From: Erythrobacter sp. YT30
Lineage (GTDB): Bacteria; Pseudomonadota; Alphaproteobacteria; Sphingomonadales; Sphingomonadaceae
Reading direction: 5' to 3'
DNA length: 64,000 bases
Assembly (NCBI RefSeq): GCF_001542875.1
Contig: NZ_LMAF01000002.1
Span: forward strand, 891,501 to 955,500
This document shows positions 72-59,808 of the stretch, piece by piece. Made by a program: the position numbers and the translations under genes. How positions within the stretch are numbered: position 1 is the stretch's first letter; every line of letters starts with the position of its first letter. Below the pieces are notes generated by a model, which worked only from the letters and a program-made list of their open reading frames with translations, was not told the origin of the DNA and ran no database searches.

Positions 72-160
72 ATGATCGCGCATTGTTTTTTGAGGGGTTA
101 GCGTACGCCAATGCAATCCCTCGCGAGCTGATCGAGCGGTGCTTTGCAAGCCTACGTTAA
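68..160 (+). CDS. possible 30-residue ORF coupled to the preceding frame
   Basis: An ATG at 68 overlaps the preceding TGA in an ATGA arrangement and opens a 30-codon frame (MNDRALFFEG... ending FASLR) that stops at 158-160, 11 bases before the methyltransferase start. I recognise no family. It could be a real small coupled peptide. It could also be the true C-terminus of the upstream protein displaced by a frameshift, because the two frames together would give a more normal tail. Existence as a gene is doubtful. Confidence 0.2.
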   Translation: MNDRALFFEGLAYANAIPRELIERCFASLR

Positions 161-171
161 ACGGAAATCCC

Positions 172-1086
172 ATGATGAAAAAACTGAGTTGCGACTGCTG
201 TCAGGCGACCATGCAGATTGTCGGGGACCATAAAGGGTTTCAACACTTTCGATGCCCCGAATGCAATTATGAGCGCTTCAAGAGTCACGAAGCAGTGCAA
301 TCGTCCGATTATGAAGAAGACATGGACTACCTTGATGACATTTCTGTCTATCCATCCGTGGATGACAGGATTTTATGGCATCATAAACACGCTCTACAAT
401 TGCTAAGGGACTGTAACGATAATGCGTTGCGCGTTTTAGACGTGGGTTGTTTCGATGGGTTTTTTGTACGCAAATTAAAAGACCATGGGATTGAAGCTTA
501 TGGGATCGATTTCAATCGCAAAGCAATTGCTGATGGTGCAGAGAGGTTTTCGCTCGAGGATCGGCTTTCCACCAAAACCACACAAGAGATCCTGGCGGAA
601 GGTGGACGATTTGATGCCGTGACAATGTTCGAAGTGATTGAGCACCTCGAAGACTTTCAACAAGTATTGAAAGACTGCAAGTCACTACTGAAGCCAGGCG
701 GCCTCTTCATTATCTCAGCACCAAATAACGATATGAGCTGGCGGCCACCGCTCGATTACCCTCCACACCACTTGTCTCGCTTTTCGCCAAAGTCGCTCGA
801 TAAATTGGTCCAAAAACATGGTTTAAGGCCTCTGGCAACGATAGAGCAGGCTAGTTTGTATGATCTAATTCGTCATTTTGTGGGGCTGAGGTTTCGCAAT
901 AATGATGCAGATAGCCTCAGGGGGGGGGAGTTTAAAAACAGGAAACTCGTAGACCCTTTGCGCAAATTTGCAACGCGTTCGAAATGGATAGCTTACCAGC
1001 TCGTAAGCCCCATCGACAAAATTCTACACCTTTTCGGTTTTAGGTATATCGGGCAAATTATGATAGCAGAAAACCCTAAGAGTTAA
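172..1086 (+). CDS. class I SAM-dependent methyltransferase with N-terminal zinc ribbon
   Basis: This is a 304-residue protein. The N-terminus carries two CxxC pairs (C7/C10 and C28/C31), a zinc-ribbon-like finger. A Rossmann methyltransferase domain follows: the glycine-rich SAM-binding motif VLDVGCFDGF at about 88-97, an acidic residue ending strand 2 (YGIDF), and a post-motif VTMFEVIEHL. This layout matches the Methyltransf_23-like enzymes that methylate sugars or sugar-linked groups in O-antigen and capsule loci; the substrate cannot be read from sequence. I chose the ATG at 172 (MMKK) because a GGAA element lies about 10 bases upstream; an upstream non-ATG start is possible. The stop is one base from the next gene's start, so the two are probably co-transcribed. 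Base composition is AT-richer than the core genes to the right, which suggests a transferred polysaccharide cassette. Confidence 0.85.
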   Translation: MMKKLSCDCCQATMQIVGDHKGFQHFRCPECNYERFKSHEAVQSSDYEEDMDYLDDISVYPSVDDRILWHHKHALQLLRDCNDNALRVLDVGCFDGFFVRKLKDHGIEAYGIDFNRKAIADGAERFSLEDRLSTKTTQEILAEGGRFDAVTMFEVIEHLEDFQQVLKDCKSLLKPGGLFIISAPNNDMSWRPPLDYPPHHLSRFSPKSLDKLVQKHGLRPLATIEQASLYDLIRHFVGLRFRNNDADSLRGGEFKNRKLVDPLRKFATRSKWIAYQLVSPIDKILHLFGFRYIGQIMIAENPKS

Positions 1087-1087
1087 T

Positions 1088-2164
1088 ATGAAAGTAGCAG
1101 TATTGGGCACAGTCGGCGTGCCAAGTGCGTATGGCGGATTCGAAACACTCGCAGAAAATTTGGTCGTATTTCATGACGAGCACGAGACTGGTTTAGAATT
1201 AACCGTATACTGCTCTGCCAATTCATTCGAAACGCGCCCTCCCTCTTATCGATCAGCCAAACTTCAATACATTCACCTTGATGCAAATGGGGTGCAGTCG
1301 ATATTTTATGATGCGGTCAGTCTTATTGACGCTGTCCTACGCGGCCACCGACGAATACTCCTTTTGGGAGTCTCAGGAGCGATCGCCCTGCCTCTTATTC
1401 GGGTCGTGCCAGGAATCAGGATCATAACGAATGTCGATGGGATAGAATGGAAAAGGGCAAAATGGAACAAACTCGCGAAACAGTATCTGCGCCTAGCGGA
1501 GAGGATAGCCGTCTGGGCCTCTCATGTTGTGATTGCAGATAACCAAGGCATCGCTTGCTATCTAGACCGAGCATATCGGTGCGAAGCGAAATTTATTCCA
1601 TATGGCGGCGATCATACGAACGCTCCGAAGTCGCCGGATACTCAGTTCGAATACCTACCCCGCGAATTCGCATTAAGCCTCTGCAGAATAGAGCCAGAAA
1701 ACAACATCAATCTCATTCTAGAAGCATTCACTACGAGCGAAATGCCGCTTGTGTTTGTAGGGAACTGGGACCGTTCAGAGTATGGTCGGGAACTCAAAAA
1801 GCGGTACTCTGAATATCCAAATATCGAGATACTTGATCCAATCTATGACCAAGATTCTTTGCATTCCCTACGAAGGCGCGCGAAAATGTATGTGCATGGC
1901 CACTCTGCGGGCGGAACTAATCCAGCCCTTGTAGAGATGATGCACTATGCAATCCCAGTCTTGGCATTTGATTGTGAATTCAATCGCTACACCACTGAAA
2001 ATAGGGCTCTTTTTTTCGAAGATGTCCATCAACTCCGAACGATTGTGGAAGGCCTGACTTCGCAAGATGCTTCACAAGTTGGGACTGATATGGTCAAGAT
2101 CGCGAAGCGCGCCTACACTTGGAAAGCAGTCGCCAGCGAGTATTTTTCGATCCTAAAGAGTTGA
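1088..2164 (+). CDS. DUF1972-type glycosyltransferase (GT-B, GT4-like)
   Basis: The 358-residue protein begins with MKVAVLGTVGVPSAYGGFETLAE, the hallmark of the DUF1972 N-terminal domain (G-x-P-x-x-Y-GGFE) found in rhamnosyl- and related transferases of polysaccharide loci. The C-terminal half has the GT4 donor-binding region, including SLCRIEPENNINLILEAF, a VFVGNW strand and a VHGHSAGGTNPALVEMMHY segment with the expected acidic residue. It probably adds a sugar to a lipid-linked exopolysaccharide or O-antigen intermediate on the cytoplasmic face; donor and acceptor are unknown. It starts one base after the methyltransferase stop, consistent with one transcript. It is followed by about 1 kb without genes. 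Codon use is AT-rich compared with the core genome on the right. Confidence 0.88.
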   Translation: MKVAVLGTVGVPSAYGGFETLAENLVVFHDEHETGLELTVYCSANSFETRPPSYRSAKLQYIHLDANGVQSIFYDAVSLIDAVLRGHRRILLLGVSGAIALPLIRVVPGIRIITNVDGIEWKRAKWNKLAKQYLRLAERIAVWASHVVIADNQGIACYLDRAYRCEAKFIPYGGDHTNAPKSPDTQFEYLPREFALSLCRIEPENNINLILEAFTTSEMPLVFVGNWDRSEYGRELKKRYSEYPNIEILDPIYDQDSLHSLRRRAKMYVHGHSAGGTNPALVEMMHYAIPVLAFDCEFNRYTTENRALFFEDVHQLRTIVEGLTSQDASQVGTDMVKIAKRAYTWKAVASEYFSILKS

Positions 2165-3172
2165 GTAAATTTCGAAAGCTTTGTATTTTTGCGTAGCTTT
2201 AGTCATTCAGTATTCAGCCTCGATGATTTTATCCACACTTCCTTTTTCAGGATCTTATCCATCGTACCTGAAAAGTGCGCAATATTGCTTAGAGCTGGCC
2301 GATATTCGATCACCGGCCATAGATCGCGAATGTTTGCCACCTGTAAAGAAGGCGCCATCAAGAAGATAGCTGTCGATAGCTAGGTTGACCGGTCAATCGA
2401 AGGAACAAAACAATTTATAGAGATCAAAACTATTGAGAGCCTCAATCTGTTCGAATCAAGTCGAAATTATATGATCGAAGTAAGGCAAACAGAACGATTT
2501 CTTCCATGATTTGACTAGGCCCTAATCATCTTCTTCGCGCGAGCAAAGAGTCATTTGATTTGGCGGTGATTATAAATAGCTGCACAGTCAATGACTGCCT
2601 AAATCTATTCTGCGAAAACATGATCCTTTAAAATCTCTAATAAAACAAACCAATTCGTCTGTTCAAACTATGTTGCTGCGCCAGTGATAAGCGAATGGTG
2701 GTAGGTTGACAAACACACCGATACTTCGCTTACCACCGCCAAGAAGGTGTCATTGAAAAGCATGCGTCATCGGTCCGGCGGTTTGCACTAGAAGGTTATT
2801 TTTCTTAATTCAGAGGCGGTAAGAGAAGAAAGATTCACGAATAAGGATCGACTCGCTTCCAATCCAATCTTTATCCGAAATGACGGGCAACGCCTCCTTT
2901 GATATCAATTGGATGAGCAGACGATAAAGACGATAAAACAGTCATGTATTTACTTGGACATAAGGACTGCCAGCGCCATTTCTAATAGAGAAAGGTGTGG
3001 GAAGATAATTTAGAACTGGACAGGATGCGATCATTCCCTTCGTGATGCTCAATTCAGCTCATCAGTGTGCCGTCTCTTGGAAAGATGGTTGCTTTCAACA
3101 TCAGGGACGGCGGCCACGTCACGACTTTTATGAAGGGTGGCTTGTTGCTCCTAAGGTGTTCAAGGCCCAAGG
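2165..3172. other. gene-free AT-rich interval of about 1 kb
   Basis: I see no convincing coding frame, RNA gene or complete mobile element here. The interval is AT-rich and stop-dense on both strands. It contains a 12-bp palindrome (TTGACCGGTCAA, 2385-2396) just after a GATAGCTGTCGATAGC direct repeat. It also has a short frame near 2917-2985 ending MYLLGHKDCQRHF, faintly reminiscent of tyrosine-recombinase C-terminal text but far too short to call. The right-hand end probably carries the promoter and leader of the sugar transferase gene. A decayed insertion or lost genes would explain the size. Confidence 0.6.
2385..2396. promoter_or_regulatory. 12-bp perfect palindrome, possible operator
   Basis: TTGACC at 2385-2390 is followed directly by its reverse complement GGTCAA. 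It lies in the gene-free interval, 780 bases before the sugar transferase gene. A dimeric regulator site is possible, but one such palindrome could be chance. Confidence 0.2.
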
Positions 3173-4525
3173 GTGATGATAATGAGAAGGCCATGTTTCA
3201 TATGGGCGCACGGGCACATCAACGTGAGAGAATTAGATACTTTCCAAAAGCCAACGCTTTGGCGAAGGGTTTTGCAGATAGGCAGTGTACAAATGGCCTT
3301 GCAATTGTTTGCAGCGCTGCTTTATCCAATTGTAGTGTGGGTTCCTATACGGGGGAATGATCCTCAAGATCCACTTTTGATAAACACCCTGTATGTATTG
3401 GCCATTGGCGCCGGAATGTCAGCATATGCACTGTCTCGGCTTAGAATCTACGCCAAGACTCGGCAGTTATCTTATTTCGTCCCAGTCAGTTTTCTGTCGT
3501 ACGCCACAGTCCTATCGGGAATTGCAGTTTTGAGAACTGAATACTCAGCTTCTCTTTTCTTGTACGGTGTCGTTTCTGCCTGTCTGGTCAGTTATCTGCT
3601 TCTCGCGATCAGCAGAGGCGCTCAGCGAGCCCAATTTGTGATACCCGGTGGAAGATCGGACGAGATCCAACTCACTCAACAGTTCATTCCTGCACCCGAT
3701 GTGCACGAGATGCAAAGCCTTGTTGAAGCCGACCGTATCGACGGCGCGATCATAGCTGACCTCCATTACGATCACCCCGATGAGTGGGAGCGGCTTTTTG
3801 CTAGAGCAGCCTTACGCGGCATTCCGGTCTATCACTATCGCCAGATCGCCGAAACGCAGAGCGGGCAGGTCAAGATCGACCATTTGAGTGAGAATGATCT
3901 TGGATCGCTGATCCCGAATGTACCCTATATGACGACCAAGCGGGCAGTCGATATCATTTCCTCATTGGTCATGATCCCGATTCTGCTCATTCCGTTTGCG
4001 ATCATCGCGCTCGCAATTAAGCTTGATTCGCCTGGCAAGGCCATTTTCATTCAGGAACGAATGGGCTTTCGCGGCGAGACTTTCCGCATGATCAAATTTC
4101 GCACCATGCGAGAACGTCGTGTTGAAGATGAAGAAACTGCTCAACGCAACGATGCGATGACGCAGGCCGATGATGCCCGGATCACACGCTTGGGACGCTT
4201 TATGCGGCACACACGGATTGATGAGCTGCCGCAGATTTTCAACGTCTTAAAAGGCGAGATGAGCTGGATTGGTCCCCGGCCAGAAGCGGAATCTTTGTCG
4301 CGCTGGTATGAGAGCGAATTGCCGTTTTATTCCTATCGCCACATAGTTCGCCCCGGCATCACCGGTTGGGCACAGGTCAATCAGGGCCATGTTGTCGATG
4401 TGGAGGATGTTAACGCGAAATTGCGATATGACTTCTATTACGTGAAGAACATCTCGATGTGGCTCGATTTTCTCATCGTGCTCAAAACTGCGCGCGTTAT
4501 CCTCACGGGATCGGGCGCCAAATAG
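3173..4525 (+). CDS. exopolysaccharide polyprenyl-phosphate sugar-1-phosphate transferase
   Basis: This enzyme starts polysaccharide synthesis by moving a sugar-1-phosphate from a UDP-sugar onto undecaprenyl phosphate at the inner membrane. The N-terminal half holds hydrophobic helices (about residues 43-58, 72-90, 104-125 and 128-148) and a soluble CoA-binding-like region. The C-terminal half, from TKRAVDIISSLVMIP at about 260, is a typical bacterial sugar transferase domain (PF02397): a membrane helix, FIQERMGFRG, FRMIKFRTM, RIDELPQIFNVLKGEMSWIGPRPE and PGITGWAQVNQG. Several starts are possible: ATGs at 3173, 3176 and 3182, with AAGGG 5-9 bases upstream of the first, or 3293. I keep 3173 because the segment before 3293 looks protein-like. 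Epimerase and dehydratase genes follow on the same strand. Confidence 0.9.
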   Translation: MMIMRRPCFIWAHGHINVRELDTFQKPTLWRRVLQIGSVQMALQLFAALLYPIVVWVPIRGNDPQDPLLINTLYVLAIGAGMSAYALSRLRIYAKTRQLSYFVPVSFLSYATVLSGIAVLRTEYSASLFLYGVVSACLVSYLLLAISRGAQRAQFVIPGGRSDEIQLTQQFIPAPDVHEMQSLVEADRIDGAIIADLHYDHPDEWERLFARAALRGIPVYHYRQIAETQSGQVKIDHLSENDLGSLIPNVPYMTTKRAVDIISSLVMIPILLIPFAIIALAIKLDSPGKAIFIQERMGFRGETFRMIKFRTMRERRVEDEETAQRNDAMTQADDARITRLGRFMRHTRIDELPQIFNVLKGEMSWIGPRPEAESLSRWYESELPFYSYRHIVRPGITGWAQVNQGHVVDVEDVNAKLRYDFYYVKNISMWLDFLIVLKTARVILTGSGAK

Positions 4526-4564
4526 ACCGCCCTTTTTTGCCCTTCAAAAAACAAGAGAATCCCA

Positions 4565-5578
4565 GTGCGTACTGTTTTGATCACCGGCGCTGCCGGTTTT
4601 ATCGGATACCACCTTGCTGACCTGCTCCTCTCGGAGGGATACCGCGTCGTCGGCTTTGACGGGATGACCGATTACTATGAAGTGGTGCTGAAAGAGCGTC
4701 GCTATCAGATGCTCAAGCAGAACCAGCACTTCACCGGGCATGTCGGTATGCTGGAGGACTTTGAAGCGCTGCATAAGCTGGCAATGGACGAAAAGCCAGA
4801 TGTGATCGTCCATCTCGCCGCGCAAGCAGGCGTTCGCTACAGCCTTGAGAACCCGCGCGCTTATCTCGATTCCAATCTGGTTGGCACGTTTAACGTGATG
4901 GAGTGTGCACGCGAACTAGGCGTGCATCATCTGCTGATGGCATCAACCAGCTCAGTTTATGGCGCGAATGAAGAAATGCCGTTTGATGAACGCGAGAAAT
5001 GCGACACGCAGCTCACATTCTATGCGGCTACCAAAAAAGCCAATGAAAGCATGGCGCATTCTTACGCGCACCTTTGGAACCTGCCGACCACCATGTTTCG
5101 CTTTTTTACGGTTTACGGGCCGTGGGGGCGTCCCGATATGGCTTTGTTCAAGTTTACCAAGGGCACGCTCGAAGGCACGCCGATCGATATCTACAACAAT
5201 GGCGATATGTACCGCGACTTCACTTATGTTACCGATCTCGTCCGCGGGCTGTGCCTCCTTATCGAGGTTCCGCCAGTGCGCCCAGAAAGCGCGGAGGATA
5301 TTCCAGAATGGGACTCGCTATCTCCTGCAGCCCCTTGGCGCGTCGTCAATATCGGCAATTCCGACAAGGTGCGGCTGATGGAATTTGTCACTGCGATTGA
5401 GCGTGAGTGCGGGCGTGAGGCAGTAAAGAACTTCATGCCGATGCAGAAAGGCGATGTGCCCGCTACATGGGCAGATGCGACACTTCTTAAAGAGCTAACC
5501 GGGTACGCACCGCAAACCGACGTCAATGAAGGCGTCAAGCAATTCGTCGCGTGGTATCGCGATTATTACGATGTGTGA
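4565..5578 (+). CDS. NAD-dependent epimerase, UDP-glucuronate 4-epimerase-like
   Basis: A 337-residue extended SDR enzyme that interconverts nucleotide sugars, most likely UDP-glucuronate and UDP-galacturonate, for the polysaccharide locus. The NAD-binding GAAGFIG lies at residues 7-13. MTDYYEVVLKERR at about 37 is typical of the UDP-GlcA epimerase branch. A TSSVYG strand, the catalytic YAATK (Tyr and Lys three residues apart) and FRFFTVYGPWGRPDMA complete the signature. The start is GTG at 4565 (AGAGAA lies just upstream), 39 bases after the sugar transferase stop. Length and motifs fit the family; the exact substrate is inferred. Confidence 0.88.
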   Translation: MRTVLITGAAGFIGYHLADLLLSEGYRVVGFDGMTDYYEVVLKERRYQMLKQNQHFTGHVGMLEDFEALHKLAMDEKPDVIVHLAAQAGVRYSLENPRAYLDSNLVGTFNVMECARELGVHHLLMASTSSVYGANEEMPFDEREKCDTQLTFYAATKKANESMAHSYAHLWNLPTTMFRFFTVYGPWGRPDMALFKFTKGTLEGTPIDIYNNGDMYRDFTYVTDLVRGLCLLIEVPPVRPESAEDIPEWDSLSPAAPWRVVNIGNSDKVRLMEFVTAIERECGREAVKNFMPMQKGDVPATWADATLLKELTGYAPQTDVNEGVKQFVAWYRDYYDV

Positions 5579-5683
5579 TAGCACGAGCTGATTGTGCAGA
5601 CACCTTTGCTTTTGCGCTCAAAACGGTAAGGCATCGACTCACGGCAGGCAACGTTCTGCATTCTGTATCAACGGGACGATTTC

Positions 5684-6739
5684 ATGAAAATTCTTGTCAC
5701 AGGTGGCGCAGGCTTTATCGGCTCAGCGGTTGTCCGGCTCGCGATCAAACGGGGACACAGCGTCGTCAATCTCGACGCGCTTACCTATGCTGCTTGCCTT
5801 GAAAACCTCGCGTCGGTTTCGGATTCCTCGTCATACTTTTTCGAGCATGCTGACATTCGCGACCGCGAGGCGCTTGATCGAATTTTCAGACAGCATCGGC
5901 CTGATTGCGTCATGCACCTTGCAGCTGAAAGCCATGTTGACAGGTCAATCGATGGGCCTGGCGACTTCATGGAAACCAACATCCTTGGCACTTTCAAAAT
6001 GCTTGAGGCGGCGCGCAAATTCTGGGTTGAGAACGACCAACCGGAAGGCTTTCGCTTTCATCATATCAGCACTGATGAAGTGTATGGATCTTTGCCCGAT
6101 GATCCCGGCATCCAGTTTACCGAGGACACACCGTATGATCCGCGCAGCCCGTATTCCGCATCAAAAGCCAGCTCGGATCATTTAGCCCGCGCCTGGGCCG
6201 AGACCTATAACCTGCCGATCCTGGTTACAAATTGCTCTAACAATTACGGACCCTATCACTTCCCGGAAAAGCTCATTCCCGTCGTGATTATCAATGCTCT
6301 CGAAGGCAAGCCATTGCCGATCTATGGCGATGGCTCAAACGTGCGCGATTGGCTCTATGTCGAAGATCACGCTGATGCGCTTTTGACTGTGATCGAAAAA
6401 GGTCAGATTGGCCGGACCTATAACATTGGCGGCGAGAATGAATGCTCCAACCTTCAGCTGGTCGAAATGATTTGTGCGATTCTCGATGAGAAGCAGCCCC
6501 GCACGGATGGAGCAACTTACGCAGATCTCATCACATTTGTCACCGATCGGCCGGGACACGATGCTCGCTATGCAATTGATCCGACGCGGATCAGAACAGA
6601 ACTAGGCTGGCGACCGTCCATGACGGTCGAGGAAGGTTTGGAAAAGACTGTTCAGTGGTATCTAGACAATGAAGATTGGTGGAGGCCACTTCTGGACCGC
6701 AAGGGTGTCGGCAAACGGTTGGGAACGGGCAAGGCTTAG
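5684..6739 (+). CDS. rfbB: dTDP-glucose 4,6-dehydratase
   Basis: This extended SDR converts dTDP-glucose to dTDP-4-keto-6-deoxyglucose, the step toward dTDP-rhamnose and other deoxysugars. Visible motifs over 351 residues are GGAGFIGS at 7-14, [34 protein letters not shown] with the catalytic Asp/Glu pair, the YSASK catalytic Tyr/Lys, and [14 protein letters not shown]. All are typical of RfbB/RmlB. The usual partners rfbA, rfbC and rfbD are not next to it in this window; the next genes are on the other strand. It is separated from the epimerase by 105 bases. The gene marks the right end of the polysaccharide locus. Confidence 0.93.
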
Positions 6740-47997: not shown

Positions 47998-49002
47998 TCA
48001 GATATCGCCGCCCGTAAGTCGCTGACAAACCAGATCTAATTGATCTAGCGTGGTGTAACGGATTGTGATCGATCCGCTTCGAGGATCAGCATCAGACTTG
48101 ATCAGCACTGGCAGCCCCAGGAACTCTTCGAGATGGTTCTGGACCGCTTCAATATCGGCATTTTGCCCTGATTCAGCGGCGAACTGCTCACCACCGCCTG
48201 ACTTCGAGGTCGGTTTTGCCGGCTTGCGCACGAGCTTCTCAACCTCACGGACCGAGAGATTGTCATTCACCGCTCGCTTGGCGAGATCGGCTGCAGCATC
48301 ATGTCCAATCAAGGCTCGAGCATGGCCCATCGATAGCTGGCCTGCTTCGACAAGGTCCAAAACCGCGTCGGGTAGGTTTAGAAGGCGCTGAATATTCGCG
48401 ACGTGGCTGCGCGATTTTTCCACCATCCGAGCGATGTCGGCCTGCGTCATATCTTCATCGTCAGCAAGCTTTTGATACGCGCGCGCTTCTTCTACGGGGT
48501 TCAAGTCTTCGCGCTGCAAGTTCTCAATGAGAGCAAGCGCCATTACTTCGCGATCGTCTAGCTCGCGAACAAGCGCAGGAATTTCATGAAGACGCGCTTT
48601 TTGCGCTGCTCGCCAGCGTCTTTCACCGGCAACCAGTTGAAAAGACCCTTTTTTTGTAGGCCTGACGATGATTGGTTGAATAACTCCGCGCGTCGCAATC
48701 GAGGATGCCAACTCTTCCAAAGCGGTTTCGTCAAAATGCTTGCGAGGGTTGCCGGGCAGAGGCGTGATTGAGGCGATGCTCAACATTTTCAGCGGCGATG
48801 ATTGATCGCTCGAAGCATCAGCCGCACTCAAAGCTTCAGAAGATACTGTAGTGGTCGCCTCTACGTTTGCGCGCGCCAGTGGCTCTTCGCGCTGGGTTTC
48901 ACCCAGAAGTGCGCCCAACCCCTTGCCCAGCTTCTTCTTCCGGGCCGCAGCGCTTCGTTGCGGTACAGAGAATTCAATGTCTTGAGTGGACTTCTTGCTC
49001 AC
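47998..49002 (-). CDS. parB: chromosome partitioning protein ParB
   Basis: ParB binds parS, spreads on DNA as a CTP-loaded clamp, and partners ParA. The 334-residue protein has the N-terminal GLGALLGE ParA-contact motif, the CTP-binding PRKHFDETALEELA and GERRWRAAQKA (box II GERRxRA), a helix-turn-helix (MTQADIARMVEKSRSHVANIQRLL), and a C-terminal dimerisation domain. Its start overlaps the parA stop by 4 bases (ATGA). Candidate parS sites lie at 49871, 50248 and 52380. Confidence 0.97.
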   Translation of the reverse strand: MSKKSTQDIEFSVPQRSAAARKKKLGKGLGALLGETQREEPLARANVEATTTVSSEALSAADASSDQSSPLKMLSIASITPLPGNPRKHFDETALEELASSIATRGVIQPIIVRPTKKGSFQLVAGERRWRAAQKARLHEIPALVRELDDREVMALALIENLQREDLNPVEEARAYQKLADDEDMTQADIARMVEKSRSHVANIQRLLNLPDAVLDLVEAGQLSMGHARALIGHDAAADLAKRAVNDNLSVREVEKLVRKPAKPTSKSGGGEQFAAESGQNADIEAVQNHLEEFLGLPVLIKSDADPRSGSITIRYTTLDQLDLVCQRLTGGDI

Positions 49003-49775
49003 GCTGCCTGCCTTTCATCCGGGAAACGCCCGATTAATTCACGTGCCAATGCGATATAAGCCCTGCTGCCGACACACGAATGATCATAGACCAGAGCCGG
49101 AAGACCGTGACTTGGCGCCTCTGACAGGCGGACATTGCGCGGTATTACCGTCTCGAAAACGAGCTGCCCCAGGCAATCACGCACATCGTCAGACACTTGG
49201 TCCGTCAATCGATTGCGGCGATCATACATGGTCAATGCGACACCAATGATATCGAGCGAAGGATTGAAGAGCTGGCGCACCTTCTCAACCGTCTGAAGAA
49301 GTTGACTTAGCCCCTCCAGCGCAAAGAATTCGCATTGGAGCGGCACCAGGAGCGTGTCTGCGGCACACAGGGCATTGAGCGTCAGAAGCCCCAGGGATGG
49401 GGGACAATCGACAAAACAAATGTCATGTTCGGTGTGGTTGGCCAAAGCACTGCGCAGCCGTGCTGTGCGTTCCTCAACGGAAACCAGCTCCACTTCAGCA
49501 CCGCTCAAATCAACAGTTGCGGGGACGATATCGAGCCCAGGGATGCTTGTTCCAACAATCGCCTCTTTCAAAGGCACACTGTCAACGAGCAAATCGTAGC
49601 TCGACATATCGCGATCGGCTGCAGTTACACCCATACCGGTCGAAGCATTTCCTTGCGGATCAAGGTCAATCAGCAACGTCCGCCAGCCCGTTGCTGCCAT
49701 CGCAGTGGCGATATTTATCGCCGTGGTGGTTTTTCCAACACCACCCTTTTGGTTCGCAATCGCGATGGTTAGCAT
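48999..49775 (-). CDS. parA: chromosome partitioning ATPase ParA
   Basis: ParA is a Walker-type ATPase that forms a DNA-bound gradient moving ParB-parS complexes. The 258-residue protein opens MLTIAIANQKGGVGKTTTAINIATA (deviant Walker A KGGVGKT), continues with LIDLDPQGNASTGMG, DICFVDCPPSLGLLTLNA and LVPLQCEFFALEGLSQL. No N-terminal DNA-binding domain precedes it, as expected for chromosomal ParA. It overlaps parB by 4 bases and lies 52 bases downstream of rsmG, in the conserved gidB-parA-parB order. Confidence 0.97.
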   Translation of the reverse strand: MLTIAIANQKGGVGKTTTAINIATAMAATGWRTLLIDLDPQGNASTGMGVTAADRDMSSYDLLVDSVPLKEAIVGTSIPGLDIVPATVDLSGAEVELVSVEERTARLRSALANHTEHDICFVDCPPSLGLLTLNALCAADTLLVPLQCEFFALEGLSQLLQTVEKVRQLFNPSLDIIGVALTMYDRRNRLTDQVSDDVRDCLGQLVFETVIPRNVRLSEAPSHGLPALVYDHSCVGSRAYIALARELIGRFPDERQAA

Positions 49776-49827
49776 GAATCTCTCTTCCAATCGGAGTGGT
49801 TTGACGGGTTCTTTCGCTTTTCGCGCC

Positions 49828-50466
49828 CTACTTGCTCACAATGATTCCAGCTTCCGGATCGGTCAATGATTGTTTCACGTGAAACATGGTCCGAATCGAT
49901 CTCTTCTGCTCCTCCAATTCGTGCGCTGCGGAGCGTCCCTTCGGCAAGAGGTAGCGCGTCGCCTTTGTGGAGAAGGGTGCGGATAACCGGAGGAGCTTTT
50001 CCAGAGGAGCAAATGCACGGGCAGATATGACGCTGGCGGAAAATGGATCGATGCGCTCCAGACGCTCTCCCCTCACCCTGCAAACGGTTAACCCAAGATC
50101 TCCGATGCAATGTTCAAGAAACTCAACCCGCCTCGCACGAGATTCGACGAAAAGAAACCGCGATTCAGGTTTAAGGATCGCAATGACGAGGCCGGGGAAG
50201 CCGGCGCCCGTCCCTAAATCAAGCCACGGCTTCTCAATAGAACAGCGTGTTTCACGTGGAACATATTCGAGCAATTGCGCGCTGTCCGCAAAGTGACGCT
50301 GCCATAATTGCGACTCTGAAGGCTTGCTTATCAGATTTTGACGCCTGTTCTCGCTCAGCAGGAGCGAGGCGAAACGATCAAGCCGCTCCATACCTTTCGC
50401 ATCAGTCCATTGAGCACAGTACGCACGTGCCTCATTCTCGTTCGTGATCAATTTGTCTCTGGTCAC
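49828..50466 (-). CDS. rsmG: 16S rRNA (guanine-527-N7)-methyltransferase RsmG
   Basis: RsmG (GidB) methylates G527 in the 530 loop of 16S rRNA. The 212-residue protein has [21 protein letters not shown] (SAM-binding motif I) and [14 protein letters not shown] (motif II), with [10 protein letters not shown] typical of the family. The start is GTG at 50466, overlapping the mnmG stop by 4 bases (GTGA). Two parS-type sites lie inside the gene, one perfect (49871-49886) and one with a single mismatch (50248-50263), an arrangement that constrains the coding sequence. Confidence 0.95.
49871..49886. other. parS: parS site, perfect
   Basis: TGTTTCACGTGAAACA, the 16-base canonical parS palindrome with no mismatch. 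It lies in the 3' part of rsmG, under 1 kb from parB. Confidence 0.95.
50248..50263. other. parS: parS site, one mismatch
   Basis: TGTTTCACGTGGAACA, one base different from canonical parS, in rsmG. It may be a weaker ParB site. Confidence 0.8.
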
Positions 50467-52340
50467 GCGGCGCGCTGGCCTTTGCCCTTTGATCCAGCTT
50501 GGACCCGGCGCGCATGCACTAGCAAGGCAGAGAGCGCCGCAGGGGTTATCCCAGCTACGCGACCAGCAGCAGCCAAGTTCGCCGGAGCTGCAGCGGTAAG
50601 CCGCTCAACCATCTCATGCGACAAGCCCGGGACTTGATCATAACCAAAATTGGCCGCGAGAGGGAGCGCTTCGCTTGCTCGCAAATCGCGCAACTCCGCT
50701 TCCTGACGTGCGAGATAGGGAGCATATGCTGCATCCTCCGCCATTTCTTCGGCGAGAATTGGGTCAAGAGCGACAACATCTCCCAGCCAAGGGTCAAGAT
50801 CTGAAAGCCCAATGCCATCATGCCTCAGCCAATCGCAAAGCTCTTTGCTCCCCCCATCTCGGCGAACATTCAAACCGTGATCGGCCAGTTCGGTTGCTTG
50901 GACCTGCTTTGACAGGACTTCATTTAAATGAACCCGGTTTTCCTCACGCTTTTCGTACCAATCAGCACGTTCTCGCCCAACACAACCCGCTTCGAGCCCC
51001 ATGGGTGTGAGGCGAGTGGACGCGTTATTGGCACGCAAGCGCAGTCTGTATTCAGCGCGCGCGGTGAGCATTCTGTAGGGCTCGCTTACGCCTTGCAGTG
51101 TCAGATCGTCAATCATCACAGCGATATATGAATTTGCGCGATCGAGAGCGGGCGCGGGACGACCAGTGACTGCCGCCGCTGCCTCCAGACCAGCAATGAG
51201 ACCCTGAGCAGCTGCCTCTTCATACCCTGTTGTTCCGTTAATTTGCCCCGCACAATACAAACCCGGGATCGCGCGCAACTGTAAATCAGAAGTGAGCGCG
51301 CGCGGATCAATATGGTCGTACTCGACCGCATATCCTGGTTCGACGATCTTGACCGTCGCAAGGCCTGGCATCAGCCGCAGCATTGCGTCCTGAACATCAA
51401 CCGGAAGGCTGGTGCTGATCCCGTTAGGATAGACAATATGCGTGGTGAGACCTTCAGGCTCAAGGAAAACCTGATGGCCGTCCCGATCACCAAAACGGTG
51501 AATCTTGTCCTCAATCGACGGACAATAGCGCGGCCCAGCAGCACCAATTGCGCCCGAGAAGAGAGGTGATCGATCCAGATTGGCGCGAATGATATCATGC
51601 GCTGCCTGCGTTGTGCGGGTAATGGCGCAGAAGACTTGCGGATTTTTGCGCCCTCCAGTGAGTGGCGACATGGTCCAACACTCGTCATCTGACTGCTGCT
51701 CATCGAGCTGTGACCAATCAATCGTTCGACCATCAAGACGCGGCGGTGTTCCCGTCTTAAGGCGCGCCATTGGCAAGTCTGCACCGCGCAATTGCTCAGC
51801 GAGACGAGTTGCAGCATTCTCGCCTATGCGCCCCCCTCCGAAGCGCTCCTCTCCGCGGTAGAGCACACCTCCTAGAAAGGTGCCCGTACACAGGACTATC
51901 TTAGGTGCTGAAAGTAACGTGCCATCTGCCAGTTCAAGACCAGCGACCGAGCCACACTTAAGCGTGAGCGCAGCAGCCTCGCCCTCTATCAAAGTCAGAT
52001 TGGTCTGGGAGCGGACTGCCCGCTGCACATACGCCTTGAAACGGGTCCGATCAGCTTGAATGCGGGGGCCCCAAACAGCGCTTCCCTTCGACCTGTTGAG
52101 CATACGGTAGTGGATGGCGCCTGCATCAGCCGCGCGACCCAAGACGCCGTCAAGCGCGTCAACTTCTCGCACCAAGTGGCCCTTACCAAGGCCTCCGATG
52201 GCTGGATTACAGCTCATCGCGCCAATCGCAGTAAGGTCAAAACTCACCAATCCGGTGCGCACACCCATGCGCGCAGCAGCCATAGCTGCTTCAACTCCGG
52301 CATGACCGCCGCCAATCACCAAAACATCGAATTCGTGCAT
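50463..52340 (-). CDS. mnmG: tRNA uridine-5-carboxymethylaminomethyl modification enzyme MnmG
   Basis: MnmG (GidA) with MnmE installs the carboxymethylaminomethyl group on wobble U34 of tRNAs. The 625-residue protein has the FAD-binding [46 protein letters not shown], and [17 protein letters not shown]. The ATG at 52340 begins [12 protein letters not shown], the family N-terminus; an upstream TTG is not needed. It ends in a 4-base overlap with rsmG and lies 75 bases after mnmE, the gap that contains a perfect parS. Confidence 0.97.
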
Positions 52341-52379
52341 ATGAGGCGAAATAGGAGCTTCGCTTGAGAACGTCAAAGC

Positions 52380-52395
52380 TGTTTCACGTGAAACA
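52380..52395. other. parS: parS site, perfect
   Basis: TGTTTCACGTGAAACA in the intergenic gap between mnmE and mnmG, the only one of the three sites outside a coding region. Confidence 0.95.
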
Positions 52396-52415
52396 TCAAA
52401 GAGAGTGAGAGGAAG

Positions 52416-53702
52416 CTACTTTCCGATGCAAAAGCGTCCGAATAGCGCGTCGAGCATGTCTTCGGTTGTGGCCCGTCCGACTATTTGATCAAAACCAAGA
52501 CGAGCTCTGCGCAGCTCCTCTGCAATCAGTAGTGGGTCGTTCTGATTCTGTATGGCCCCGAGCACCTCTGCCACGCGACCTAGGATGTTATGCTGGCGCT
52601 CATTTAATGCAGCTTCTCCCGGTTTGGGGAGGATGGTTCGTGCTTGCTTGACCAAGGCTATCTTTAGCTCAGTGATACCCTCACCGGTCTTCGCTGATAG
52701 CGAGTATACAGAACCTGACTTTGGCTCATATTCTGGCGCATCAAGCCTCGGTGCAACCTCCCAAGCATATTCTGGCCCCTCACCCTCGTCGCCTAGCCAC
52801 AACACGATATCTGCTTTAATGAGTTCCGCGTTGGCACGCTCTATCCCAATCACTTCGACGGCATCTGCACTGTCCGAACGCAAGCCTGCCGTGTCGATAA
52901 ACACAAACGGGACGCCGGATATTGCTACGCCGCGTTCAATCACATCACGGGTTGTGCCCGCAATGGGAGACGTAATCGCCGCTTCGCTCTCAACAAGCGC
53001 ATTAAATAGGGTCGATTTGCCTGCATTGGGTGGACCTGCAAGAACAACACGAACCCCGGCACCAAGGCGACTTGACCGCGGGCGCGCAAGCCATCGGTCT
53101 AACTCGGCAGCCAATTCGCCGATGTTTCCCGTGAAACCATCGGGCAAAGCATCCACATCATCCTCATCCGAAAAATCCAACGCCGCTTCGATTTGGGCCG
53201 AAGCATTAAGGACCCTGTCGCGCCATTCTTCAACTTGGCGTGATAGGCTGCCGCTCGCATTGGCTATGGCAGCCGCACGCTGCAGCTCGGTTTCCGCAGC
53301 GAGTAGATCGGCAAGCCCCTCCGCTTCGGCCAAATCAATCCGACCATTGGCAAAAGCTCTTCGGGTGAACTCGCCGGGCTCTGCGGGGCGCAGTCCTTCG
53401 ATTTTCGACAAGGCAGCTTCGACGGATGCGAGCACTGCCCTACCCCCGTGGCAATGGAGCTCAACGCAATCCTCGCCGGTTGCATTGCTAGGCCCCGGCA
53501 GCCACAAAACGAGCGCCTCATCCAAGATTTGACCTCCTGCATCACGTAATTTGGCGAGTGAAGAGCGGCGTGGCTCAAACTGTTTTTTGGTCAGTTTTTG
53601 CAATGCAAGCGCCGCCGCCGGACCACTTACGCGAATAACGCCGATCGCAGCCGGGGGTGATCCGCTGGACACCGCAAATATAGTCGCATTGCCTGCGCTC
53701 AT
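52416..53702 (-). CDS. mnmE: tRNA modification GTPase MnmE
   Basis: MnmE (TrmE/ThdF) acts with MnmG on U34. The 428-residue protein has the tetrahydrofolate-binding N-terminal domain (TIFAVSSGSPPAAIGVIRVSGPAA), the helical middle, a G domain with GPPNAGKSTLFNAL, TTRD and DTAGLR, and the C-terminal FCIGK, in which the conserved Cys is the catalytic residue. The G domain has normal motifs. Its reading frame stops before the parS gap. The DUF6489 gene lies 35 bases upstream. Confidence 0.96.
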   Translation of the reverse strand: MSAGNATIFAVSSGSPPAAIGVIRVSGPAAALALQKLTKKQFEPRRSSLAKLRDAGGQILDEALVLWLPGPSNATGEDCVELHCHGGRAVLASVEAALSKIEGLRPAEPGEFTRRAFANGRIDLAEAEGLADLLAAETELQRAAAIANASGSLSRQVEEWRDRVLNASAQIEAALDFSDEDDVDALPDGFTGNIGELAAELDRWLARPRSSRLGAGVRVVLAGPPNAGKSTLFNALVESEAAITSPIAGTTRDVIERGVAISGVPFVFIDTAGLRSDSADAVEVIGIERANAELIKADIVLWLGDEGEGPEYAWEVAPRLDAPEYEPKSGSVYSLSAKTGEGITELKIALVKQARTILPKPGEAALNERQHNILGRVAEVLGAIQNQNDPLLIAEELRRARLGFDQIVGRATTEDMLDALFGRFCIGK

Positions 53703-54138: not shown

Positions 54139-54537
54139 TTACGATGCAGCAGGCTGACTGAGGAAGTCTCTAATAATACTGTCCAAGCCGCTAGGCACAT
54201 CGCGACCTGCCTGTTCAGCAATTTCAGCCAAGATGGCATCGTTAGAAGTCGATCGAAGTCTGCGCATTGACCATTTGGAGAAGGCCGAATGGGCGATCTG
54301 CTCATCGAGTACAACCGTGCAATCGCAGTGCCGATTGTCGCTCTGGATTACGCCATAAAGAGCCGAGATTTGGTCTGCTGGACCTTCAAGGAGCTGCAGA
54401 AAGCGGCGGTTCGAGTATAGCAGGAAGCCACTGAGACCAATGTCGCCATTCTTGCGAGCAGACTGAGAGACAATCCGAAAGAGATCGCCTTCGGCAAAAT
54501 CCGCCGTAGCAACACTGGTGTATACCAATCGTCTCAT
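54139..54537 (-). CDS. short BLUF blue-light sensor protein (first of two)
   Basis: A 132-residue protein made of a BLUF domain and short C-terminal helices. The flavin-binding residues are in place: Y6 (VYTS), N30 (ARKNGDIG) and Q48 (FLQLLEG), with W89 and M91 (KWSMRR). The distances Y-Q of 42 and Q-W of 41 match AppA (Y21, Q63, W104). The protein should bind FAD and rearrange hydrogen bonds under blue light. No effector domain is attached, so signalling must go through a partner. It is tandem with a second BLUF gene, 84 bases upstream, on the same strand. Confidence 0.9.
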   Translation of the reverse strand: MRRLVYTSVATADFAEGDLFRIVSQSARKNGDIGLSGFLLYSNRRFLQLLEGPADQISALYGVIQSDNRHCDCTVVLDEQIAHSAFSKWSMRRLRSTSNDAILAEIAEQAGRDVPSGLDSIIRDFLSQPAAS

Positions 54538-54621: not shown

Positions 54622-55014
54622 TCAATTGAGGACGGCGAAATTCATAATGATGCGCCGCGTTTCGTTATCCAGCCCTTTTGGCAGATCACGATCGAGCATT
54701 TTTTTCCGGTCCTCAATGCTTTGCGCTATCAAGACCCGTTTCATTGCCCAATTGGGGCACGCCCGATCATCTATGGTACGGCGATCTAGCACCGAAATGC
54801 CGGTATGCCTTGGATCGTGTGTAATCCGTACCATCAGCGATATGAGCTCAGCCTCTTCCCCCTCCAGCAATTGGAGAAAATTGCGCCCATTGTAGAGCAA
54901 CAGCCCGGTAATACCCTTCTCAGGATTGTTGCGCGCGCTTGTCTGGAGGATCGACTCCACCTCTTCACGCGAAAGGCTCGGCGCGGTGCTGATATATAGA
55001 TACTGACTTAGCAT
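54622..55014 (-). CDS. short BLUF blue-light sensor protein (second)
   Basis: A 130-residue BLUF protein: QYLYISTA with Y7, ARNNPEKGITGLLLYNGRNFLQLLEG with N30 and Q48, and NWAMKR with W89 and M91. All flavin-contact residues are intact, although the Y-Q interval is one residue shorter than in its neighbour. The C-terminal part (LPKGLDNETRRIIMNF) is similar in length to, but differs in sequence from, the partner (VPSGLDSIIRDFL), so the two are diverged paralogues. It lies 53 bases downstream of rho on the same strand, so read-through from rho is possible. Confidence 0.9.
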   Translation of the reverse strand: MLSQYLYISTAPSLSREEVESILQTSARNNPEKGITGLLLYNGRNFLQLLEGEEAELISLMVRITHDPRHTGISVLDRRTIDDRACPNWAMKRVLIAQSIEDRKKMLDRDLPKGLDNETRRIIMNFAVLN

Positions 55015-56552: not shown

Positions 56553-56999
56553 TCAGAATGGACGCACGTAAACCAGCAAGACAATCAGCACCAATAAGAG
56601 CCCAGGCACTTCGCCAATCATCCGAAGCGTCTTTTCCGACAAGGGCCTTTCACCGCGCGCCATTTTCTTGGTCTGTGCTACCAGCCAGCCGTGATAGCCG
56701 CTTAAGATAACCACCAAGGTGATCTTTGCATGAAGCCACCCTGCTCCAGTGAAAGCGTTGAGGCCAAAAGCCAATATCAGGCCCAAGACCCACACGATGA
56801 TGAGGCTTGGTGTAAGAATGATCTTGCGCAGTTTCCCCATGCGATCTGCCCATTTGGCCTCTCCCGCCGAGCCTGGCTCATGATCGAGCATGTAGATGCA
56901 CTGGCGCGGCAGCATGAACAGGCCCGCAAGCCAGAAGACCATGAAAACGACGTGGCCGACTTTCAGCCACGGATAAACGTAAGGAAAAATCGCATCCAT
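56553..56999 (-). CDS. hemJ: protoporphyrinogen oxidase HemJ (UPF0093/CopD family)
   Basis: HemJ oxidises protoporphyrinogen IX to protoporphyrin IX in the membrane, with a heme cofactor. The 148-residue protein has four hydrophobic segments, and conserved His in PWLKVGHVVFMVFWLAGLFMLPR and GWLHAKITLVVILSGYHGW, then GERPLSEKTLRMIGEVPGLLLVLIV. It sits 9 bases downstream of hemE on the same strand, so the two heme-pathway genes are co-transcribed. Generic annotations call it a CopD-like protein. Confidence 0.9.
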   Translation of the reverse strand: MDAIFPYVYPWLKVGHVVFMVFWLAGLFMLPRQCIYMLDHEPGSAGEAKWADRMGKLRKIILTPSLIIVWVLGLILAFGLNAFTGAGWLHAKITLVVILSGYHGWLVAQTKKMARGERPLSEKTLRMIGEVPGLLLVLIVLLVYVRPF

Positions 57000-57008
57000 G
57001 GTGCAGGA

Positions 57009-58025
57009 TTATCCTCTCAATGTCGCAAGCAATTGCTCGACATGGGCAATCGGCGTGAATTGGCCGATACCGTGGCCAAGATTAAAGACATGCGGACGAT
57101 CCTCAAACGCCTCGATGATGGTTTTCACGCGCTTTGGCAGCATCGGACCGCCAGCTTCAACCAACAATGGATCAAGATTGCCCTGAACCGGCATCCCAGA
57201 AGGCAGGGAAGCATGCACAGAGGCCGGATCAAGTGTTTCGTCGAGCCCAACTGCATCCACACCCGTCTCACGCGCATAGGCGGCCAATTTGGAGCCTGCG
57301 CCTTTTGGAAAACCGATTACCGGCGTATCAGGATGAGATTGCTTTAACGCTGCGGTGATTTTGGCATTCGGTGCCACTACCCAGCGTTCAAATTCATCTG
57401 GAGCAAGGCTTCCTGCCCAACTGTCAAACAACTGAACTGCTTCCGCGCCTGCATCGATTTGCCCGCGCAGATAGCCAATCGTGACATCGATAATCGCATC
57501 AAGGATTGCCTGCATACGCTCAGGATCCTTGTAGGCCAGCAAACGGGCAGGCCCCTGATCTTTTGAGCCTTCTCCAGCGATCATATAGGTCGCAACTGTC
57601 CAAGGTGATCCCGCAAAACCCAGCAGCGTCACGTCATCGCTGATAAGGCCGCGAGTAAGACGCAAAGTCTCATAAATCGGTTCGAAACGATCAGGAGCTG
57701 CGGTAAAATCTGCAAGCTCTGCTTCCATCAATGTAGGGCTTAACTTCGGTCCTTCGCCAGCCAAAAACTCAAGACCCTGACCCATCGCATGGGGCACAAT
57801 CAGAATATCGGAGAACAGGATTGCACCATCAAAGCCGAACCGGCGAATGGGCTGAACAGTAATCTCAGCCGCGGCTTCGCTATCGTAAACTAGTTCAAGA
57901 AACCCGCCTTTCTCTGCCCTAAGCTCACGATATTCAGGAAGGTACCGACCAGCCTGCCGCATAAGCCAAACTGGCGGTACGGCTTGGCGTTTTCCCTTTA
58001 AAGTGTCGAGCAATGGGCCCGGCAT
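57009..58025 (-). CDS. hemE: uroporphyrinogen decarboxylase
   Basis: HemE removes four carboxyl groups from uroporphyrinogen III. The 338-residue protein shows PPVWLMRQAGRYLPEYRELR (substrate-binding Arg), ILFSDILIVPHAMG, and DSWAGSLAPDEFERWV, HGIGQFTPI, all diagnostic. AGGAGG lies 5 bases before the ATG at 58025. hemE directly adjoins the predicted replication origin, the same placement seen in Caulobacter crescentus and Rickettsia. Confidence 0.97.
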   Translation of the reverse strand: MPGPLLDTLKGKRQAVPPVWLMRQAGRYLPEYRELRAEKGGFLELVYDSEAAAEITVQPIRRFGFDGAILFSDILIVPHAMGQGLEFLAGEGPKLSPTLMEAELADFTAAPDRFEPIYETLRLTRGLISDDVTLLGFAGSPWTVATYMIAGEGSKDQGPARLLAYKDPERMQAILDAIIDVTIGYLRGQIDAGAEAVQLFDSWAGSLAPDEFERWVVAPNAKITAALKQSHPDTPVIGFPKGAGSKLAAYARETGVDAVGLDETLDPASVHASLPSGMPVQGNLDPLLVEAGGPMLPKRVKTIIEAFEDRPHVFNLGHGIGQFTPIAHVEQLLATLRG

Positions 58026-58369
58026 AGTCCCTCCTATAAACAATAAATATTATATTAATAAGTTTGATGGTGATTGTTGGCCCTGTGGAAACCGGGAATT
58101 ACCAGCCCCCTGCCCGATTTCGGGGAAAGTGCAAAGGAAATTGACTCTTGGCGAATCCGCAACCGAACTGAGTCAAGCGAGACCTATCCCCAGTGTTCCC
58201 AGCCTGTCGAAAAAGCTCCCGTCATGTCGACAATCGCCAATAGAGAAGCCCTGACAATGGGTATGAAATCCCCTCCCCTGCTTGTCGACGGTTTCCTCCC
58301 GTGGTTTATGCCTAGGGGTTTCCACAGCCCCTCGCCTTCGTCTTCTCTTCATATGCCAGATCGCCTCTC
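58026..58369. other. predicted chromosomal replication origin (oriC)
   Basis: The 344-base gap between hemE and the PPSR gene has no coding frame. It begins with an AT-rich tract (58034-58065, next to hemE) suited to unwinding. DnaA-box-like sites occur as TGTGGAAAC (58084-58092) and its exact inverse GTTTCCACA (58318-58326), each two bases from TTATCCACA, plus CTATCCCCA near 58184. Three GANTC sites (58143, 58153, 58170) cluster, the target of the cell-cycle methylase CcrM, and TTGACTC/GAGTCAA form an inverted repeat. In Caulobacter and Rickettsia the origin lies between hemE and this same kinase-family gene. All listed features are pattern-based; replication activity is inferred. Confidence 0.8.
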
Positions 58370-59215
58370 ATGAACCGTATCAACCTTCATCTCGTCTCGG
58401 ATTCAACCGGCGAAACGCTGGAAATGATCGCGAAGGCGGCATTGGCGCAATTCGATGATCCTGATGTCAGCCGCCATTTCTGGCCAATGGTGCGTTCAAA
58501 ACAGCATCTGGATCGGATCGTGCCCGACTTGGCCGATAATCCGGGGCTCGTGCTTTACACGCTGGTCAATCCCGAAAGCCGCAAACGGTTGGAAGAGCAT
58601 TGCCGCCACTTGGGTCTGCCAGCTGTTCCCGTTCTCGATCAAGTAACCGCTGTTCTGGAATCGCAATTGGGCCAAGAGGCGCATGGGCGCCCAGGTCGCC
58701 AACACTCAATGGATGATGCATATTTCAAGCGGGTGGATGCTATCCAATATACGATCGCGCACGATGACGGCGTAGGGCATGATGATTGGGAAGAGGCTGA
58801 TATCGTGCTCGCGGGCGTTTCGAGAAGCTCCAAAACGCCAACGTCGATCTATCTCGCCAATCGCGGGTACAAGACGGCGAATATCCCGCTTGTCGTGGAA
58901 AGCCCTCCGCCCAAAGCACTGTTCGGATTGCGCAATCCGCTTGTCGTGGGGCTCACAACAGCGCCAGAGCGGTTGGTACAGATCCGCCGCAATCGTCTTT
59001 TGTCACTCAATGAGGGCACCGAAACCGCCTATGTCGATAATGAGCGGGTGAAGAGCGAGCTGCAATTTGCTCGGCGCATGTTTGCCGACAATGGCTGGCC
59101 GGTGATCGACGTCACGCGCCGATCGATTGAGGAGAGCGCCGCGGCCATCATTCGCTTGGTGCAAGAGCGCAAACGCCGCGACAAGCCAGTCGACGGGGTG
59201 GCAAAACCGATATGA
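58370..59215 (+). CDS. pyruvate, water dikinase regulatory protein (PPSR, DUF299)
   Basis: A 281-residue bifunctional kinase/pyrophosphorylase of the DUF299 family, which phosphorylates or reactivates PEP synthase or PPDK. Motifs are LVSDSTGETLE at about 8-18 and the P-loop GVSRSSKTPTS at 149-159, then NIPLVVESPPPKALF and FARRMFADNGWPVIDVTRRSIEE. Length matches the family. It is the first gene right of the predicted origin. Its last 4 bases overlap maf (ATGA), starting a four-gene overlap chain to coaE. Confidence 0.93.
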   Translation: MNRINLHLVSDSTGETLEMIAKAALAQFDDPDVSRHFWPMVRSKQHLDRIVPDLADNPGLVLYTLVNPESRKRLEEHCRHLGLPAVPVLDQVTAVLESQLGQEAHGRPGRQHSMDDAYFKRVDAIQYTIAHDDGVGHDDWEEADIVLAGVSRSSKTPTSIYLANRGYKTANIPLVVESPPPKALFGLRNPLVVGLTTAPERLVQIRRNRLLSLNEGTETAYVDNERVKSELQFARRMFADNGWPVIDVTRRSIEESAAAIIRLVQERKRRDKPVDGVAKPI

Positions 59216-59808
59216 GCGCGCCCCATCTCATCCTCGCCTCAAAATCCGCATCACGCCGAGCGATGTTGGATGCAGCAGGCGTCACATACGAAGCAATCCC
59301 AGCCGATATTGATGAAAGAGCGGTGGAAGCCGGCCTTGAAGGAGCATCGCCGCCTGACGTCGCCGAGGCTTTGAGCGTTGCCAAGGCTGCAGCTCGCGCG
59401 CCCGATCATCCAGAGGCGCTGGTTTTGGGCAGCGACAGTCTGGTCGTTGTTGATGGAAAGAGGTTCGACAAGCCCAACTCACGCGAAAATGCTGCGGAGC
59501 ATTTGCGCTTCTTTTCGGGCAAGCCGATTGAGCTTCACAGCGCTGCCGCGCTTGTGCGCGGCAATACGTGCGAGTGGAGCCACGCATCGCGCGCTTTGCT
59601 GCATGTTCGCGAGTTATCTGACGACTTTATTGAAGACTATCTTGAGAAGGAATGGCCCGAAGTTGGCCACACCGTCGGGGTATTTCGGATCGAAGCGAGA
59701 GGCGTCCAGCTGTTCGAGACAATCGAAGGCGACCAGTTCACCGTGCTTGGAATGCCTCTTTTGCCATTGCTCGAGGCGTTGCGCGAACATGGCGTGTTGC
59801 TGCGATGA
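59212..59808 (+). CDS. maf: Maf family nucleotide pyrophosphatase
   Basis: A 198-residue Maf/YhdE/YceF-like nucleoside triphosphate pyrophosphatase that removes modified nucleotides such as dTTP/UTP analogues. It starts LILASKSASRRAMLDAAGV (the S-x-S-x-R-R motif), with LVLGSDSLVVVDGKRFDKP and FRIEARGVQLFETIEGDQFTVLGMP. The usual Glu/Asp/Lys positions are recognisable. It overlaps the PPSR gene by 4 bases and aroE by 4. Confidence 0.92.
   Translation: MSAPHLILASKSASRRAMLDAAGVTYEAIPADIDERAVEAGLEGASPPDVAEALSVAKAAARAPDHPEALVLGSDSLVVVDGKRFDKPNSRENAAEHLRFFSGKPIELHSAAALVRGNTCEWSHASRALLHVRELSDDFIEDYLEKEWPEVGHTVGVFRIEARGVQLFETIEGDQFTVLGMPLLPLLEALREHGVLLR

Follow-up and report, generated by a model that had tools for sequence, protein, structure and literature searches.

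The chromosomal origin of Caulobacter crescentus (Cori) is repressed by CtrA. This experimentally identified origin and the predicted origin of Rickettsia are both flanked by hemE and a COG1806 gene (PMC1914354), and the Caulobacter W-boxes (consensus TCCCCA; PMC4285127) are weak sites which need cooperation with G-boxes (PMC4468827). In Alphaproteobacteria other than Caulobacter, and possibly Rickettsia, CtrA sites have not been seen in origins (PMC4468827), and in Sphingomonas melonis CtrA can be lost without harm to growth (PMC8116508). Origins next to hemE have already been predicted for most Sphingomonadaceae (PMC4741004), and the one predicted for Novosphingobium has both hemE and a DnaA gene close by (PMC4059872). 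Reportedly, proximity of dnaA to the origin is not conserved in this order, so that dnaA gives no guide to the position of the origin. Among the literature matches listed, no paper is devoted to an Erythrobacter origin. The location of the origin discussed here is itself expected, origins of the hemE-adjacent kind being already known; the value of the present analysis is a precise map of a predicted origin without perfect CtrA sites.

The window, that is, the whole stretch of 64,000 bp that was analysed, corresponds to positions 891501-955500 of contig C2 in a 3.20-Mb genome of four contigs, and among the matches found the nearest named relatives belong to Erythrobacter (91% identity of the PPSR protein). 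A sequence-only reading had predicted an oriC in the gap between hemE and the gene for PPSR (a DUF299 kinase), in the same place as the Caulobacter and Rickettsia origins. The gap was located exactly, from the hemE ATG at 58025 (minus strand) to the PPSR ATG at 58370; Pfam assigns the two divergent genes to URO-D and Kinase-PPPase (Table 1), and the flanks agree with those described in PMC1914354. Such a gap between divergent hemE and COG1806 (PF03618) genes is the arrangement of the hemE-COG1806-type alphaproteobacterial oriC. The prediction is further supported by a skew minimum, by the top DnaA-box cluster, by the neighbouring parS sites and parAB genes, and by conservation, and we conclude that the gap is very probably the chromosomal oriC, of the hemE-COG1806 kind, of this Erythrobacter-group bacterium.

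Table 1. Coordinates of the features of the predicted origin and its surroundings (positions within the window)
Feature	Position	Strand	Evidence or remark
parB and parA	47998..49790	-	ParB 47998-49002, ParA 48999-49790
Stretch with four parS-like sites	49871..53138	.	sites at 49871, 50248, 52380, 53123
hemE, uroporphyrinogen decarboxylase	57009..58025	-	URO-D PF01208, E 6.4e-108
Predicted chromosomal origin, non-coding gap between hemE and PPSR	58026..58369	.	344 bp; skew, DnaA-box score, conservation
AT-rich tract, probable DNA unwinding element	58034..58061	.	26/28 bases A/T
TGTTGGCCCTGTGGAAAC: putative DnaA box 1 (reversed, GTTTCCACA) with conserved flank, adjoining the AT-rich tract	58075..58092	-	GTTGGNCCTGTGGA in 107/110 gaps, CCTGTGGA in 110/110
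CGAATC: conserved GANTC (CcrM methylation) site	58152..58157	.	107/110 gaps
Conserved GTCAA block	58172..58176	+	aligned gaps
CTATCCCCA: weak DnaA site that includes the Caulobacter W-box TCCCCA	58184..58192	+	TCCCCA in 87/110 gaps
TGTCGAAAA: degenerate DnaA-like site inside a conserved block	58205..58213	-	box scan, alignment
TGTCGACAA: degenerate DnaA-like site	58225..58233	-	box scan, alignment
CTTGTCGAC: first half of the rigid conserved module	58281..58289	+	CTTGT 21 bp before TGGTTTAT
TCCCGTGGTTTATGCC: strongly conserved element	58297..58312	+	TGGTTTAT in 107/110 gaps
GTTTCCACA: putative terminal DnaA box, in inverted orientation to box 1	58318..58326	+	T[C/G][C/A]ACA core conserved downstream of TGGTTTAT
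PPSR, Kinase-PPPase (COG1806/DUF299)	58370..59215	+	PF03618, E 5.6e-95

On the hemE side, the neighbours are rho, mnmE, mnmG, rsmG, parA and parB, and on the PPSR side maf, aroE, coaE and a dnaQ-like exonuclease gene. The Caulobacter origin has this gene order around it, and likewise has parAB nearby. ParB and ParA had been correctly announced 6-10 kb away, together with three parS-like sites; Pfam and the coordinates bear out the two genes, and the sites number four, of which those at 49871 and 52380 are exact, that at 50248 has 1 mismatch and that at 53123 has 2. Shuffled sequences are expected to hold 0.18 such sites (up to 3 mismatches), and none of 100 shuffles gave four. The exact parS sites and parAB are within about 5-10 kb of the gap. 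An Rfam scan of 56900-59300 gave no match at E values up to 1, and the search of a plasmid collection gave a single match, of 99 bp, inside a hemE gene. Two further observations concern the surroundings. Two short, adjacent genes for BLUF blue-light sensors (54139-54537 and 54622-55014; both PF04940, E 2.7e-26 and 2.1e-27) are located between mnmE and rho, and positions 1-6000 of the window have a GC content of 0.465-0.495, against 0.53-0.60 in the rest of the window, and are possibly recently acquired DNA.

The gene pair is widely retained. PPSR is present in 61 of 61 genus genomes and in 141 of 149 family genomes, and a divergent hemE is directly upstream of it in 56 of the 57 best-scoring genus and family loci, the one miss (L025) being a contig end. 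These 57 loci and 80 named loci make 137, four of which are short or partial and without hemE (L025, L135, L163, L182); the 133 remaining gaps comprise 110 distinct ones, which over-represent close relatives because the searches returned the best matches first. Among 49 further family and order loci, several of whose genomes repeat earlier ones, 48 have the hemE/PPSR pair, and the exception (L272) is again a contig end. At the class level, the kinase family was found in 90 of 142 genomes, with a divergent hemE in 29 of the 30 best loci, own genome included; the other locus (L212) is without hemE in the fetched flank. Not only the genes but also non-coding blocks of the gap are conserved across the genus, the family and the order.

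The AT-rich tract beside hemE, the inverted pair of DnaA-box-like sites and CTATCCCCA had all been read from the sequence, and each was found where it had been placed: the tract at 58034-58061, and TGTGGAAAC (box 1, 58084-58092) and GTTTCCACA separated by 225 bases. The A/T count of the tract is reached by 5 of 63,973 such segments of the window, some of which overlap the tract itself; in aligned relatives an AT-rich tract is at the same place with drifting sequence, as judged by eye. The gap as a whole is 49.4% AT and the tract 93%, against about 42-49% in the sampled genome stretches; the four Rickettsia origins, in contrast, are 81.5-82.8% AT (PMC1914354), compared with 49% here. Five nine-mers in the gap differ from TTATCCACA by no more than 2 mismatches, whereas the 344-bp windows of the 784 kb sampled contain 0.60 on average; 0.04% of these windows match the number in the gap and none exceeds it, which places the gap at the top in the search for clustered boxes that the sequence-only reading had proposed. 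All five carry 2 mismatches to TTATCCACA and none in the gap is nearer, while the excess of such sites over the whole window is mild (134 vs 107 in shuffles); the clustering and the conservation are therefore what count. With a weight matrix built from relatives, own species' gap left out, the gap again has the top DnaA-box score in the 784 kb, a rank it shares with overlapping windows starting from 57983; this test is partly circular since these two boxes, as they occur in relatives, served to train the matrix, whereas the 2-mismatch count is untrained and also at its sampled maximum in the gap.

Cumulative GC skew, another check that had been proposed, has its minimum near the gap: over 104 contiguous kb it is at 58408, which is past the gap edge and 39 bp inside PPSR. 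The wider sampling covered 784 kb, or 24.5% of the 3.2-Mb genome. On contig C2, the skew is negative in 9 of 11 samples to the left of the site and positive in 9 of 11 to its right, two per side breaking the rule; the mean skew passes from -0.0084 to +0.0159 (Mann-Whitney p 0.0004). The best single change point on C2 is the site itself, a test that is partly circular since the window had been split at 58200 beforehand. The skew is weak overall. All 4 samples from contig C3 are positive, and along C1 the sign changes from mixed to negative, which a terminus in C1 would lead one to expect; with the contigs unordered, this is a consistency check only. A dif-like pattern had no match in the genome at up to 3 mismatches, so that the terminus is not placed. 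In the closed genome of one relative (G020), 13 of 13 samples left of hemE-PPSR are negative and 8 of 13 right of it positive, with an interpolated minimum 52 kb away; in another (G025), the figures are 11 of 14 and 6 of 14, and the minimum is blurred, 200 kb away. The skew shift is thus found in the genome under study, at 24.5% sampling, and is blurred in G025.

These observations bear on two other explanations. The true origin could be beside dnaA, at about 1.410 Mb of C2, the hemE gap being a regulated divergent promoter region only. The second-best box-sum locus of the 784 kb is indeed just 3' of dnaA, with motifs conserved in the genus, and the Novosphingobium prediction cited above (PMC4059872), near both hemE and a DnaA gene, points the same way. 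However, dnaA is 460 kb from the hemE-PPSR site, among stretches of mostly positive skew, and there is no skew switch at it (positive samples at 1.31, 1.41 and 1.61 Mb, a value near zero at 1.51 Mb); parAB is close to hemE, and so are the four parS-like sites, in a parS search that covered the surroundings of hemE. We consider an origin beside dnaA very improbable. Alternatively, the conserved blocks could serve hemE and PPSR chiefly as promoters and operators, with no replication origin in the gap, given that two divergent genes must start from the gap and that TTGTCG-N17-TTTATG has a promoter-like spacing. Yet a scan with the sigma-70 consensus found no promoter, and this explanation accounts neither for the skew minimum and the inverted DnaA boxes nor for the proximity of parS and the class-wide retention of the gap; it appears extremely improbable to us.

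Taking the gap as the origin, its likeness to Cori extends to the flanking genes, the AT-rich tract and the weak DnaA sites including a TCCCCA W-box (PMC1914354, PMC4285127, PMC4468827), and the Rickettsia prediction shares the hemE and COG1806 flanks (PMC1914354). The Sphingomonadaceae predictions (Sphingopyxis TFA, Novosphingobium PP1Y and DoriC entries) are likewise beside hemE with DnaA boxes (PMC4741004, PMC4059872), and that for Sphingopyxis includes a putative unwinding element. In contrast to Cori, the gap has no perfect CtrA site and no TGATCCACA G-box, and it has an extra, lineage-specific module at 58281-58312. The perfect CtrA site TTAA-N7-TTAA is absent from all 110 gaps and a looser form occurs in one; the single 1-mismatch match in the present gap is inside the AT-rich tract. 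The lack of perfect sites fits the statements on CtrA in PMC8116508 and PMC4468827. The E. coli IHF consensus WATCAANNNNTTR has no match in the gap within 1 mismatch, and the Caulobacter site misfits it too (PMC4285127).

The DnaA-trio, a trinucleotide repeat of the basal unwinding system between the AT-rich tract and a DnaA box, is at background in the 97 module-bearing gaps (strict form 11% vs 9% in shuffles, relaxed form 5% vs 4%). Among the other order and family gaps, 26 of 33 of which could be scored, it reaches 23% vs 9.5% (strict) and 46% vs 4% (relaxed). Order-level gaps such as L256 and L263 have TTGTAGTAG- or GATGATG-like repeats beside the AT-rich tract and exact TTATCCACA boxes, unlike the gap described here.

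By analogy with Caulobacter, from which we borrow the loading of DnaA, the filling of weak sites and the melting, initiation may proceed as follows. DnaA would load on the two inverted end boxes (58084 and 58318) and cooperatively occupy the weak W-box-like and TGTCGA sites in between, and the AT-rich tract next to box 1 would melt. Methylation of the central GANTC by CcrM probably marks the freshly copied origin. At this site, [C/G]GA[A/C]TC precedes GTC[A/G]A in all distinct gaps except L036, L147 and L148, with C as first base in 104 and with A (69) or C (38), never G or T, as the middle base. GANTC occurs on average 3.5 times per gap, against 1.2 in shuffles, and three times in the present gap (at 58143, 58153 and 58170); in the genome samples the mean is 0.38 per 344 bp, with three or more in 1.3% of windows. 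A CcrM-like methylase is encoded on C3 (L297:1294-2502); it was found via PF01555 and a PDB search (6pbd, E 1e-153, residues 52-393 of 402) and has a RAMA domain. PF18284, tried as a CcrM marker, gave no match, and its control matched in E. coli only; it is the wrong domain. The GAKTCG core of the GcrA motif YGAKTCG (PMC7987155) fits the reverse strand of CGA[A/C]TC, and the full motif is present in 28 of the 107 central sites and absent from that of the present gap.

The conserved module is the only part of the origin that might be new. Of the 107 gaps with TGGTTTAT, 102 have a CTTGT whose start is exactly 21 bp upstream of it, and T[C/G][C/A]ACA starts 11 bp after TGGTTTAT in 94 gaps and 10 bp after it in 9; the whole array, CTTGT-N16-TGGTTTAT followed 10-11 bp on by the last DnaA-box core, is found in 101 of the 110 gaps. 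In this species, five bases separate the end of the module from the terminal DnaA box. The gap holds the single exact copy of the 15-mer CCCGTGGTTTATGCC in the genome; at up to 2 mismatches there are 8 matches, against 7 for a backward control. A copy with 1 mismatch (C1:870768), at the start of an rpsC-like open reading frame in what is presumably a ribosomal-protein gene cluster, as we name these genes from their sequences, was taken as chance. The available texts of PMC4741004 and PMC4059872 make no mention of the TGGTTTAT module or of the GANTC conservation; the supplementary alignment for Sphingopyxis may show the same blocks.

Comparison of sequences suggests that this strongly conserved module is, so far as seen, particular to the bacterium's own family. 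Of 20 family loci that are more distant, 8 have GGTTTAT beside PPSR; none of 20 loci belonging to the other families of the order has it there, and in one of these it occurs at a far-off position. The exact 12-mer CCCGTGGTTTAT is present in 36 of 118 order genomes, 12 of 35 in the family and 24 of 83 outside it, the latter being the chance level (27 of 83 for the backward control). At the class level, the 15-mer was not found within 2 mismatches in any of 29 gaps, while the 11-mer core TGGTTTATGCC occurs within 2 mismatches in 8 of the 29, against 8% in shuffles. These last matches occur on either strand and at varying distances from PPSR, and may be weakly related to the module. A promoter dyad test on 13 family loci that lack the module gave 3 TTG-N20-T[A/T] pairs with the module spacing, against 0.9 in shuffles, a difference that settles nothing either way.

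As judged from its sequence, the module could be either a promoter for PPSR covered by the terminal DnaA box or a site for another protein. A PPSR promoter inside the origin, its start site covered or closely followed by the terminal DnaA box, would couple DnaA occupancy and transcription. The fixed 17-bp spacing from TTGTCG to TTTATG and the 10-11 bp from TGGTTTAT to the DnaA-box core argue for it, whereas the hexamers fit the sigma-70 consensus poorly and the spacer TCCCGTGG is about as conserved as they are, which promoters do not require; we regard this as a serious candidate, somewhat short of an even chance. More speculative, and in our estimation rather unlikely, is that the Erythrobacter group has rebuilt its origin, with CTTGT-N16-TGGTTTATGCC binding a lineage-specific regulator that replaces CtrA, and with a central CcrM site that GcrA or another reader could sense. 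Whatever its function, the module offers a bait for an origin-binding protein, and lets one ask how Alphaproteobacteria have rewired the control of their origins.

The second cluster of DnaA-box-like sites is directly 3' of dnaA (C2:1410136-1410290; L073:136-290) and is perhaps a DnaA titration or reactivation site. Of the 24 genus dnaA loci, 22 were examined (L273-L294); all 22 contain TG[CT][ACG]AACA, and 13 a fuller composite with TGTCGACAG, which this species does not have. The gene downstream of dnaA differs among them, being moeB-like in 9 and coding for a CPRCG-motif protein in 12.
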